Below, piece after piece: positions 6,732 to 43,683 of a stretch of DNA of 64,000 nucleotides. A model generated the notes under the pieces. It did not search any database and was not told the origin of the DNA. It saw only the letters and a list, made by a program, of their open reading frames with translations. The translations under genes and the position numbers were made by a program. Positions within the stretch are counted from its first letter, which is position 1. Each line of letters begins with the position of its first letter. The DNA comes from Flavobacteriaceae bacterium (lineage in GTDB: Bacteria; Bacteroidota; Bacteroidia; Flavobacteriales; Flavobacteriaceae), in NCBI GenBank assembly GCA_028284005.1, contig JANQSO010000010.1, positions 1 through 64,000 on the forward strand, read 5' to 3'.

Positions 6732-6762
6732 AAAAAAAGGCTTGTCGTGATTGACAAGCCTT
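6732..6762 (-). terminator. trp attenuator terminator hairpin
   Basis: On the minus strand a perfect 10-bp stem (AAGGCTTGTC with GACAAGCCTT, 6-base loop) is followed by seven T. It stands between the leader peptide stop and trpE. The loop and 3' arm contain TCACGAC, the exact complement of GTCGTGA at the leader stop codon (6793-6799), which would give a competing antiterminator. Confidence 0.88.
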
Positions 6763-6792
6763 AGTATAATATTATATACGATAGTGCCTAGC

Positions 6793-6849
6793 TCACGACG
6801 TTTGACGTAAGTTATTCCACCACCATGTATTTGTTTTTATTGTATTCAT
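6793..6849 (-). CDS. trpL: trp operon leader peptide
   Basis: An 18-residue peptide MNTIKTNTWWWNNLRQTS with three consecutive Trp codons (TGG TGG TGG), then TGA. It lies between a consensus promoter and the trp terminator hairpin, the architecture of ribosome-mediated attenuation. If ribosomes stall at the Trp codons, GTCGTGA around the stop codon stays free to pair with TCACGAC in the terminator and transcription continues. If they reach the stop, they cover that segment and the terminator forms. The mechanism is inferred from sequence; the codons and complementarity are visible directly. Confidence 0.9.
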   Translation of the reverse strand: MNTIKTNTWWWNNLRQTS

Positions 6850-6860
6850 AATTTCATTTT

Positions 6861-6890
6861 CAAATATAGAAATGAAATTTAAAACAACAA
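6861..6890 (-). promoter_or_regulatory. trp operon promoter (Bacteroidota type)
   Basis: On the minus strand TATATTTG (6868-6861) matches the -7 consensus TAnnTTTG exactly, and two adjacent TTG triplets (6885-6890) supply a -33 element at a spacing of 16 or 19 bases. It lies 12 bases before trpL and just after the stop of the upstream YceI-like gene. Confidence 0.75.
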
Positions 6891-37432: not shown

Positions 37433-37437
37433 TGGAG

Positions 37438-37834
37438 TGGAGCCGGAGGGATTCGAACCCTCGTCCAAACGCGCAACAATAACGCTTTCTACATGCTTAG
37501 TTTTCATTTGGATTTTCGTCTGCTTCCCGGTCGAAAACTACCAAGTCACAGCTTAGCTTCCATTAGATTTCGTTAGTACATCAAAGCCCTGCACCAACTA
37601 GGTTTACTTTTACGAAGCCTCTATATCGATTGCCGTAAACCAAGGCCATCGAGAGACTTCCTGCTTTCCGACCTTGTCGGACGAGGCATTATCCTACTAT
37701 AATTCAGATTATGCAGCTAGGGCGTAGTTATTCTCGCCGTTTAAAAAGTGTGAAATATGAGATTTACGAGCTGTATCCCAGCGCTCGGCATGCTTACACT
37801 ATCATTAGACCCGCTGTCAAAACCAGTCGGCCCC
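37438..37834 (-). ncRNA. ssrA: Transfer-messenger RNA (tmRNA)
   Basis: 397 nt. The 5' end GGGGCCG pairs with the 3' CGGCTCC (7 bp including the typical G3-U pair), and the 3' T-arm reads GAGGGTTCGAATCCCTC. The tag reading frame at 37738-37709 encodes GENNYALAA then TAA, matching known Bacteroidota tags once the tRNA-carried alanine is added. CCA is not encoded after the discriminator A (CTC follows), so it must be added by nucleotidyltransferase. tmRNA rescues stalled ribosomes and tags products for proteolysis. Confidence 0.97.
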
Positions 37835-41184: not shown

Positions 41185-41475
41185 TTATTTTCTGATTAGT
41201 TTTTCCAAAGCATCGATATGCTTTTTAAATTCGATTTTTCCAAGTTTGGTAGCGCTGTAACGTGTATTGGGCTTTCTGCCTATGAACTGTTTTTCCACCA
41301 GGATATATTTAGCCTGTTCCAAAGCTTTCAGATGACTTGCCAGATTTCCATCTGTCACATCCAGTAGCTCTTTTAACCTATTGAAATCGGCACTGTCATT
41401 AACAACCAGAATGGACATGATCCCCAGGCGTATTCGATGATCAAATAGTTTATTTATATTATCAATAATTCCCAC
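41185..41475 (-). CDS. Winged-helix transcriptional regulator (HTH_34 type)
   Basis: 96 aa from the GTG at 41475, which is 2 bases after the upstream stop and gives the expected VGIIDNINKLFDHRIRLGIM opening; upstream in-frame codons would sit inside the previous gene, so a start there is unlikely. The body SADFNRLKELLDVTDGNLASHLKALEQAKYILVEKQFIGRKPNTRYSATKLGKIEFKKHIDALEKLI is a single winged helix as in PF13601-type regulators. The palindromes TACTTTG-N5-CAAAGT before its operon and creD are its likely targets. Confidence 0.85.
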   Translation of the reverse strand: MGIIDNINKLFDHRIRLGIMSILVVNDSADFNRLKELLDVTDGNLASHLKALEQAKYILVEKQFIGRKPNTRYSATKLGKIEFKKHIDALEKLIRK

Positions 41476-41477
41476 AA

Positions 41478-42086
41478 TTACACCTTTTTTTCCTGAAGAT
41501 ACATCAAACTTCCGTACAGGATATGCAATAATCCAAATCCGGCAATCCAAAACCAGAATCCATAGCCGGGCAGCGCGGCACAAATAAGTCCGAGAACTAT
41601 TTCAGCATAGCCCAGATACTTTATATTTCCAACGGTATACTTTGAAGCATTGACAAGTGCCAATCCGTAAAAGATCAGCATTAAAGAGGCTGTAAGGCCG
41701 TAATGTTGGCTATTTATTTTTATAATAATATAAATACCGCCTGTAATTAACGGAATTAAAAAGTTAATAAGTAGTCGTTTTGTTGTGGAATCCCATGCTT
41801 TTACATTGTCCTTTTTGGCTTTTTTGGAGGTTAATAAAAAAGCGGTTACAATACTAAAAATTGCTACTAAGGCCAATAACAGCAATGTGATCTTAAAATT
41901 CCAACTATGAATGTATAGATATTCTCCCGGTTTTGGGAAAACAAATATGTAAGCAATTATTGCTCCCGCAATCGCATAGAGTCCGGCAAAGATACCCGAG
42001 AGGCCACTAAGTGAGATAAACCGTGAAGAGCGATTCATTAGATCTTTGATCTCGCTGATGTCTTTTAAATAATCTTTTTCAGTCAT
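41478..42086 (-). CDS. Multi-pass membrane protein of unknown function
   Basis: 202 aa, six predicted transmembrane helices (one near 24-50, the rest from 63 on). The C-terminal part GYGFWFWIAGFGLLHILYGSLMYLQEKK is typical of proteins adjacent to this kind of winged-helix gene. First gene of the operon with the regulator, starting 9 bases after the palindrome at 42095-42113. Confidence 0.7.
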   Translation of the reverse strand: MTEKDYLKDISEIKDLMNRSSRFISLSGLSGIFAGLYAIAGAIIAYIFVFPKPGEYLYIHSWNFKITLLLLALVAIFSIVTAFLLTSKKAKKDNVKAWDSTTKRLLINFLIPLITGGIYIIIKINSQHYGLTASLMLIFYGLALVNASKYTVGNIKYLGYAEIVLGLICAALPGYGFWFWIAGFGLLHILYGSLMYLQEKKV

Positions 42087-42094
42087 GATAAAAG

Positions 42095-42113
42095 TACTTT
42101 GAAAAACAAAGTA
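42095..42113. promoter_or_regulatory. Operator-like palindrome upstream of the regulator operon
   Basis: Perfect palindrome TACTTTG-AAAAA-CAAAGTA, 9 bases from the start codon of the membrane protein gene. Same arms as the site upstream of creD. Autoregulation is expected. Confidence 0.75.
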
Positions 42114-42253
42114 AGAAGAATCTTTTAGATTTTCAAAATGAACAGGTGTTAATATTTCACTAAAACTTCTTTTTTCGATTTTACCTGCAAATGATTTTTG
42201 TCATATTTTCTTGGCCATTTGTTTGCGAAATTTAATATCAAATTCAAATTTTA

Positions 42254-42679
42254 ATGATTATGAAAAAAAGAACGCCAATTTCCGCAATAATGACCAAAAA
42301 TGTGATCACATTAAACCATACAGATAGTTTGGAGACGGCCGAGCACCTGTTTAAATTGCATAAGATAAGACATATTCCCGTTGTAAGTGGTGACGCTATT
42401 TCCGGGATGTTAAGCTATACAGATTTGCTGCGCATTAGTTTTGCAGATGCGGTGGATGAAGAAGAACATGAAGTAGACACGGTTGTATATAATATGTTTA
42501 CCATTGAACAGGTAATGGCAAAGAACCTGGTTAGTGTTCCTTCTACTGCTACCATCAAGGAAGTTGCAGAGATTCTTGCAAAAAAAGAATTTCATGCGAT
42601 CCCGGTTGTGGATGACGCCAAATTGGTTGGTATTGTTACCACAACAGATTTGATCAATTACTTATTGGAACAATTCTAA
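42254..42679 (+). CDS. CBS-domain pair protein
   Basis: 141 aa, two CBS motifs: VITLNHTDSLETAEHLFKLHKIRHIPVVSGD and LVSVPSTATIKEVAEILAKKEFHAIPVVDDAKLVGIVTTTDL. It is a stand-alone CBS module, usually binding adenosine nucleotides. The ATG at 42254 is used; another ATG is 6 bases further on. Its 3' end is 4 bases from the first element of the repeated units at 42683 onward. Confidence 0.9.
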   Translation: MIMKKRTPISAIMTKNVITLNHTDSLETAEHLFKLHKIRHIPVVSGDAISGMLSYTDLLRISFADAVDEEEHEVDTVVYNMFTIEQVMAKNLVSVPSTATIKEVAEILAKKEFHAIPVVDDAKLVGIVTTTDLINYLLEQF

Positions 42680-42682
42680 GAA

Positions 42683-42824
42683 TAGGAAAAACCCTATAAA
42701 AATATAGGAATTTTCCTCTTGTAGGTTGTTTTAGATAAACAGATATTTAAGTGGCTTAATTAATTGGGAAATTAATATAAGCTGAAATGGGAAAAGGTTG
42801 TTCAATTTTGAACAACCTTTTTTT
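42683..42824 (+). ncRNA. Tandem short transcription unit A (candidate small RNA)
   Basis: Layout: palindromes TAGG-AAAAAC-CCTA and CCTATA-AAAA-TATAGG, TTG (42719-42721), GATATTTA after 20 bases, conserved block TTAATTAATTGGGAAATTAA (42756-42775), then a perfect 11-bp hairpin (42793-42820) with T tail. The predicted transcript is about 68 nt. There is no credible open frame. Units B and C repeat the design with different hairpin sequences, which argues for a family of small RNAs. Confidence 0.55.
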
Positions 42825-42867
42825 AATAGCTTATTTATTGACCTTTAGTGTTTTGAATTGCAAAAAA

Positions 42868-43054
42868 CAGGAAAAATCCTGTAGCAAAAATAGGAAAAAC
42901 CCTGTTGCTTTACATATAAGTTTATTTGCATATTTGAGTGTCTTAAAGAGATGATCTATATCTAATCATAAGACATTTTAATCGTTATATAATTAATTGG
43001 GGAGTTAATAAAAACGGTTATTTAAAAAGTTGTTCACCTCGAGCAACTTTTTTT
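42868..43054 (+). ncRNA. Tandem short transcription unit B (candidate small RNA)
   Basis: Begins with ACAGG-AAAAAT-CCTGT and a second half-similar TAGG-AAAAAC-CCTG. The conserved block ATAATTAATTGGGGAGTTAA is at 42989-43008, and a terminator hairpin (43026-43050) with T tail ends it. Predicted RNA ~65 nt. The hairpin stem (AAGTTGTTC) resembles unit A (AGGTTGTTC). Confidence 0.55.
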
Positions 43055-43073
43055 ATTTGGAGTAGCAATAAAA

Positions 43074-43217
43074 AACAGGAAAAACCCCTATACAAAAAGG
43101 GGGATATGCCTCTTGTACATAATTTACAATCGCCGCATCTTTGTATAGCTTAATTAATTGGGGAGTTAAAAAAAGCGATTTTAGAAGGGCTACTCTTTAT
43201 TGAATAGCCCTTCTTTA
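43074..43217 (+). ncRNA. Tandem short transcription unit C (candidate small RNA)
   Basis: Layout: AGGAAAAACCCCT, CCCCT-N8-AGGGG, TTG (43113-43115), 20 bases, CATCTTTG (43136-43143), block TTAATTAATTGGGGAGTTAA (43149-43168), hairpin 43184-43213 with T tail. Of the three this has the best promoter. Its hairpin sequence (GAAGGGCTA) is unlike A and B. Confidence 0.6.
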
Positions 43218-43261
43218 TTAAAAACTAATTTATTTGAACTCAGCCAGGTTCTTATTAGTAT

Positions 43262-43297
43262 AAAAAGCCCTGCTATTGCAAAATAGCAGGGCTTTTT
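43262..43297. terminator. Strong bidirectional terminator
   Basis: A 16-bp perfect stem (AAAAAGCCCTGCTATT with AATAGCAGGGCTTTTT, loop GCAA). Ends the region of the tandem units; 23 bases later the DUF1801 gene starts. Confidence 0.85.
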
Positions 43298-43320
43298 AAT
43301 TAGTAGTATCTTAGCCGTCA

Positions 43321-43683
43321 ATGAACCCGGCAGAAAGCTATATACTTGATCAGTCAGAACCATTTCGCTCCATATTACTGCATTTACAGGTGGTAATTGA
43401 AACTACTGTACCCAATGTAGTCCTGCAATACAAATGGAAAGTACCTTACTATTGCATAGACGGAAAGCTTCCATTTTGTTATTTAAATTGTACCAACGGA
43501 TATGTTGATCTGGTATTTTGGCATGGGGCACATCTTACAAAACATTTGGAGGTTTTGGTTTCTAAAGGAAGGAAACACTTTAAGTCATTGCGCTATAGGA
43601 AACCGGAAGATATCGACCAGGAGGTCTTACTCGATCTTATAAAAGAAGCGTATTCCTTAAAGGACAAAAAATACTATAAGTGA
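43321..43683 (+). CDS. DUF1801 family protein
   Basis: 120 aa. VLQYKWKVPYYCIDGKLPFCYLNC, VDLVFWHGAHL and the C-terminal LRYRKPEDIDQEVLLDLIKEAY are typical of this small fold of unknown function (YdhG/PF08818-like). Its 3' end overlaps the convergent kdsA by 10 bases. Confidence 0.82.
   Translation: MNPAESYILDQSEPFRSILLHLQVVIETTVPNVVLQYKWKVPYYCIDGKLPFCYLNCTNGYVDLVFWHGAHLTKHLEVLVSKGRKHFKSLRYRKPEDIDQEVLLDLIKEAYSLKDKKYYK

Follow-up and report, generated by a model that had tools for sequence, protein, structure and literature searches.

The csRNAs of the CiaRH regulon in streptococci are several similar, short small RNAs (sRNAs) of 87–151 nt, some of them in tandem (PMC3091779, PMC8186281), and the Rsm sRNAs of the Gac/Rsm system need several GGA motifs (PMC2375449). 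Within Bacteroidota, FopS of Bacteroides thetaiotaomicron comprises a single-stranded 5′ seed and a terminator and exists as 14 dispersed copies, with no known two-component control (PMC11697453), and Rfp18 of Flavobacterium psychrophilum is described as genus-wide, with at least three stem-loops (PMC9723704). Little is known of post-transcriptional control in Flavobacteriaceae, and no described sRNA family from this group with a named transcriptional regulator was found in the literature.

Three plus-strand units lie between a CBS gene (ending at 42679) and a DUF1801 gene (starting at 43321) in the window, by which we mean the whole 64-kb stretch of DNA analysed. The reading preferred here, at a probability of about 70%, is that a two-component system switches on tandem sRNA genes, each with its own promoter and terminator, and that a conserved hairpin would be their active part. 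A twin control site and a hairpin in each copy, a shared chromosomal spot and the same site before a sensor/regulator pair together point to an undescribed family of co-regulated sRNAs in marine flavobacteria.

Anatomy of the array

The 20-base block TTAATTAATTGGGGAGTTAA occurs on the plus strand at 42756 (2 mismatches), 42989 (1 mismatch) and 43150 (exact), against a mean of 0.01 matches in dinucleotide shuffles of the window, none of which reaches three. The block is well beyond chance, and the three units of one design in the original prediction are real. Each runs in the same order: two GG-N6-CC palindromes, TTG, a spacer of 20–21 bases, a (C/G)ATnTTTR box and then the block, with a terminator hairpin at the end (Table 1). 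The palindromes, TTG-N20-NATNTTTN and T-tailed hairpins were all found at the predicted places, with the palindrome always paired, and a regular expression for the operator pair plus promoter has exactly three matches on both strands of the 64 kb. The sole open reading frame overlapping the units is one chance-like 55-aa frame.

Table 1. Predicted features of the array, and the candidate regulator gene elsewhere in the same genome (G000). Loop bases are in square brackets.
Feature	Position	Strand	Details
Unit 1	42685-42825	+	
Unit 1 paired operator	42685-42721	+	GGAAAAACCC 42685-42694, GGAATTTTCC 42707-42716; 22 bp apart, abutting TTG 42719-42721
Unit 1 -7 box	42742-42749	+	GATATTTA; Bacteroidota sigma-ABfr-type; 20 nt after TTG
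Unit 1 predicted sRNA, class S	42752-42825	+	~74 nt; start inferred from promoter spacing
Unit 1 hairpin	42753-42783	+	apex UUAAUU[GGGA]AAUUAA
Unit 1 terminator hairpin	42788-42825	+	
Unit 2	42870-43054	+	
Unit 2 paired operator	42870-42907	+	GGAAAAATCC 42870-42879, GGAAAAACCC 42893-42902, then TTG 42905-42907
Unit 2 -7 box	42929-42936	+	CATATTTG; relatives with long 5′ parts share this geometry
Unit 2 predicted sRNA, class L	42941-43054	+	~113 nt; start likewise from the promoter; extra 5′ segment
Unit 2 hairpin	42980-43019	+	apex UUAAUU[GGGG]AGUUAA
Unit 2 terminator	43024-43052	+	
Unit 3	43078-43218	+	
Unit 3 paired operator	43078-43115	+	GGAAAAACCC 43078-43087, GGGATATGCC 43101-43110, then TTG 43113-43115
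Unit 3 -7 box	43136-43143	+	CATCTTTG
Unit 3 predicted sRNA, class S	43146-43218	+	~73 nt; covariance model
Unit 3 hairpin	43148-43176	+	apex UUAAUU[GGGG]AGUUAA
Unit 3 terminator	43183-43214	+	
Inverted repeat	43261-43298		perfect, 17 bp, T-runs on both strands; just before DUF1801
Response regulator, NarL/GacA-type	G000:C1:124694-125350		HisKA_3 kinase adjoining

Transcripts of about 65–70 nt had been proposed for all three units. This holds approximately for units 1 and 3 (~70–74 nt, with predicted starts near 42753 and 43147), but unit 2 had been misplaced by a predicted start at 42990; because its -7 box is CATATTTG, the promoter would put the start at ~42941 and the length at ~113 nt. Among relatives, the distance from the end of the -7 box to TTAATTGGGG is 9–12 nt (class S), 22–23 nt, or 47–65 nt (class L). 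The predicted RNAs fold better than their shuffles (z = −7.2, −3.1 and −3.4 for units 1, 2 and 3), and units 1 and 3 score 70.4 and 73.4 bits with the covariance model described below. The inverted repeat before DUF1801 is probably a bidirectional terminator closing the array rather than a fourth unit; a similar CCCTGC..GCAGGG hairpin ends the array before kdsA in an Aequorivita-type locus (L210).

Structure of the RNA and its possible mode of action

A covariance model (R1) of the block and hairpins recovered 77 copies in total, so that the search proposed for other Flavobacteriaceae did return a family. Matches at E ≤ 0.01 were present in 43/299 sampled Flavobacteriaceae genomes and convincing copies, 1–4 in each, in 26/299; nearly all members score 40–82 bits. 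Weak or late matches were read individually: those at L209, L212–L216 and L219 are real, and those at L217, L218, L220 and L221 are bare terminators and were rejected. Exact 16-mer matches outside Flavobacteriaceae were also rejected as chance or coding sequence (≤36 bits with R1), except for one in a Bacteroidetes MAG (L101, 50 bits), which looks real. No described element had been recognised in the array, and Rfam 15 agrees: at the gathering threshold it matches only tmRNA and Bacteroid-trp in the window, and in a permissive scan every match in the array region was below threshold.

In the two-hairpin structure (77 copies, 70 distinct), 94.5% of cells are paired, and double-change cells number 174 compared with 45.7 in shuffles. 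Covariation was 0.438 in the alignment fitted to the model, compared with 0.07–0.16 for slid pairings, and 0.274 compared with 0.08–0.13 in an independent MAFFT alignment. Covariation involves the outer stem of hairpin 1 and each of the eight terminator pairs. The apex, UUAAUU[GGGG]AGUUAA, varies little in sequence and has a near-invariant core, YU[GGGG]AGUU; where it does vary, the pairing mostly survives (U-G to C-G or U-A; U-A to C-G in L216 or to A-U in L213). Compensatory changes, put forward at the outset as a check on the hairpins, are present in outer stem, apex stem and terminator. Loop variants are GGGA, in window unit 1 with a matching U-A pair, and GAGG. Two outlying RNAs were seen. 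The fourth copy in Ulvibacter antarcticus (L115:2706-2777) has a lengthened stem that is paired throughout, GGUUUAAUUAGCU[GGGG]AGUUGAUUAAACC, and keeps only the GGGG loop and its nearest pairs; a diverged hairpin plus terminator in Patiriisocius marinistellae (L147:7001-7076, AAUAGCU..UUAAUUGGGGAGUUAA..AGCUAUU, 31.8 bits with R1) may be a distant relative.

Each RNA amounts to a near-invariant apex on a 5′ hairpin, followed by a terminator, with hardly anything besides, so the apex would be the functional part. Recognition of the folded hairpin by an RNA-binding protein is tentatively favoured as the most likely mode, at about even odds with antisense and other modes, because changes in the apex preserve folding and nothing other than the apex is conserved in every copy. 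No RNA-binding partner was found. A CsrA sponge was rejected, CsrA/RsmA (PF02599) being found in 0/22 sRNA-bearing genomes by a search with positive controls.

The chief alternative, which we consider possible with the odds somewhat against it, is that the units are csRNA-like antisense RNAs acting in trans, whose apex opens so that GGGGAG pairs with CUCCCC-type sequence near the start codons of several mRNAs and represses translation. Known multicopy sRNAs under two-component control, such as the csRNAs, act in this way (PMC8186281); the A/U-rich apex stem is weak, the apex sequence is near-invariant, and the 10-mer AACTCCCCAA, antisense to the apex, is commoner than its reversal in 22 genomes. 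However, this excess sits in coding sequence rather than in start regions: of 80 sites read out, 45 were antisense to an ORF, 27 fell within an ORF in the sense direction and 8 lay elsewhere (72/80 in coding sequence), start regions were not enriched and no gene or start region was seen to recur among the 80, which leaves room for shorter or imperfect seeds. The apex changes, moreover, keep pairing as they would in a folded element.

A more specific form of the folded-hairpin reading is a Gac/Rsm-like circuit of Bacteroidota, in which a NarL-type system drives multi-copy sRNAs whose GGGG-loop hairpin sequesters or recruits an RNA-binding protein in genomes lacking CsrA; this we hold to be rather unlikely.

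A paired operator and its candidate regulator

In most of 51 units, GG-N6-CC sites lie 34–37 bp and 56–60 bp before the -7 box, and the two palindromes of each window unit are 22–23 bp apart. The operator consensus is near AACAGGAAAAATCCTGTT and the pairs are of ACAGGAAAAACCCTGT type (the weight matrix was trained on the sRNA promoters). Across 873 kb of control loci, operator pairs occurred at 26 loci, all with sRNA blocks; two genomes (G287 and G090) have the sRNA without the operator. Pattern searches for the regulon in the window's own genome returned mainly the three sRNA promoters, C1:137596-137632, C1:127247-127340 and C8:363596-363638, the last two upstream of two paralogous kinase operons. 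At the first (L224, G000:C1:137596-137760), the same twin operator and promoter stand before an ORF of 37 aa whose product contains a hydrophobic segment (MKKVAHKLLLAIINFVIVVFFPHDYRSKEKQAETEKK) and may be a small membrane protein belonging to the regulon.

By Pfam, both paralogous operons encode, in order, a 114- or 161-aa protein, a membrane protein, a HisKA_3 histidine kinase and a response regulator. The operon, marked by its 161-aa protein, is present in 22/22 sRNA-bearing genomes; of 30 genomes without the sRNA, 21 have a relative of the marker. A paired operator was found at 19/30 kinase-operon loci in the former and 2/24 in the latter (Fisher p = 5e-5 by locus, 3.5e-5 by genome), the kinase operons of the latter being putative orthologues. 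Gene order is kept in the 17 operons read out, and in 16 of them one or more sites scoring over 12 bits precede the first gene or its relative. No clear operator pair was seen at the kinase operon of 6/22 sRNA-bearing genomes, one of which (G101) has well-scoring sites there. The best models for the response regulator are MctR, NarL and UvrY/SirA/GacA, all below equivalog cut-offs, and its best solved relative is NarL. The first-gene proteins (L230, G000:C1:126806-127150; L419, G000:C8:362980-363462) match neither Pfam nor NCBIfam and some have a lipoprotein-like signal; they are candidates for an accessory signal protein.

The inverted repeat of the operator fits a GerE-type dimer, and we infer that the regulator binds the twin sites. 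When phosphorylated, it would bind each GG-N6-CC palindrome as a dimer, so that every promoter carries two dimers and the proximal one contacts the -33 TTG, and in this way would activate all three sRNAs together, plus its own operon. Transcription, the regulator's identity and activation as the direction of control are all deduced from sequence. The adjacent HTH_34 repressor of the creD operon was rejected as regulator: no operator was seen in its upstream region (42087-42253), and creD/HTH_34 is not beside the array in several genomes.

It is unlikely, but a good deal less so than the remaining alternatives below, that the sRNAs are real and answer to another regulator, of which the kinase/NarL operon would be a co-target. 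The link is the shared operator only, the kinase operon has no operator pair in some sRNA-bearing genomes, and genomes of this kind usually carry several LuxR-type regulators. Against this, the kinase operon was the only recurrent partner found, autoregulation is common in two-component operons, and inverted repeats suit a GerE-type dimer.

Chromosomal setting and relation to known systems

In the 3.13-Mb genome that contains the window, R1 detects the three array copies and no other convincing one, its next match having E = 0.2. Elsewhere it matches in ~20 genera (hosts named in a GTDB scan include Altibacter, Ulvibacter, Marixanthomonas, Aequorivita, Planktosalinus, Aureisphaera, Aureitalea, Cochleicola and Pukyongia), and nearly all copies occupy one place, after ald or the creD/HTH_34/202-aa gene (sometimes the CBS gene) and before DUF1801 and/or kdsA and typA. 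This conserved synteny, with a twin operator and promoter for each copy, bears out the proposed family of co-regulated sRNAs. Ulvibacter litoralis carries four copies. Roughly ten sRNA-bearing genomes carry just one each, and this counts against a pure dose or titration role. In the window, the HTH_34 winged-helix gene (41185-42086, minus strand) stands with creD and a gene for a 202-aa membrane protein that belongs to no Pfam family; these three are conserved array neighbours in most genomes. A tmRNA gene (37435-37834, minus strand, Rfam 145 bits) adjoins an alanine dehydrogenase-like gene a few kb before the array, and a Bacteroid-trp leader (RF01692, 82.9 bits) lies at 6753-6869 on the minus strand.

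Tandem blocks with palindromes could suggest a repeat at the DNA level or a mobile element, such as a REP-like one or a MITE, that has no function as RNA, but the locus beside kdsA is fixed across genera, no copies occur elsewhere in the genome, no phage match was found for the array, both hairpins carry compensatory changes and promoter geometry is fixed, making this very improbable. A multi-copy 5′ leader or attenuator of DUF1801, suggested by the array's position directly upstream of that gene in the window and as a regulatory leader by the original prediction, is equally remote given that each unit has its own terminator and that neighbouring genes vary, Aequorivita, Planktosalinus and others having no DUF1801 after the array.

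The units have what distinguishes intrinsically terminated sRNA genes, namely their own promoter, no ORF, a terminator hairpin and structural covariation, and the sequence itself shows their anatomy, structural conservation, synteny and an operator common to the kinase/regulator operon. With the operator, the candidate kinase/regulator pair and the RNA element all named, a two-component/sRNA regulon could be established in a cultured relative such as Ulvibacter, Aequorivita or Altibacter, and the invariant hairpin could be a route to a new RNA-binding partner where CsrA is absent.

CiaR is an OmpR-type regulator with direct-repeat sites. Like the csRNAs, some of which are also tandem, each short sRNA of the array has a regulator site upstream and its own terminator (PMC3091779, PMC8186281); unlike them, the units conserve a folded GGGG-loop hairpin under a predicted NarL-type regulator, whereas csRNAs keep regions complementary to the ribosome-binding site and AUG, and the AACTCCCCAA sites read out for the array family showed no enrichment at translation starts. 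The array shares with FopS a multi-copy Bacteroidota family ending in an intrinsic terminator (PMC11697453), but the 5′ part of its units is a covarying hairpin, with no Rfam match. With the Rfp sRNAs it shares an intergenic origin in Flavobacteriaceae, but its two-hairpin units differ from Rfp18 as described (PMC9723704). On that comparison, made by description only for the Rfp sRNAs, and with no Rfam match, the array looks like an undescribed sRNA family. Its differences from Gac/Rsm are the lack of CsrA/RsmA in the genomes that bear it, one motif per RNA and two operators per promoter; like RsmX/Y/Z, it is multi-copy and has a purine-rich GG(G)A in a hairpin (PMC2375449). RsmX/Y/Z also have a palindromic upstream site and a regulator of GacA type (LuxR family), to which the array's palindromes, present also before the NarL/GacA-type operon, and its candidate regulator may correspond.
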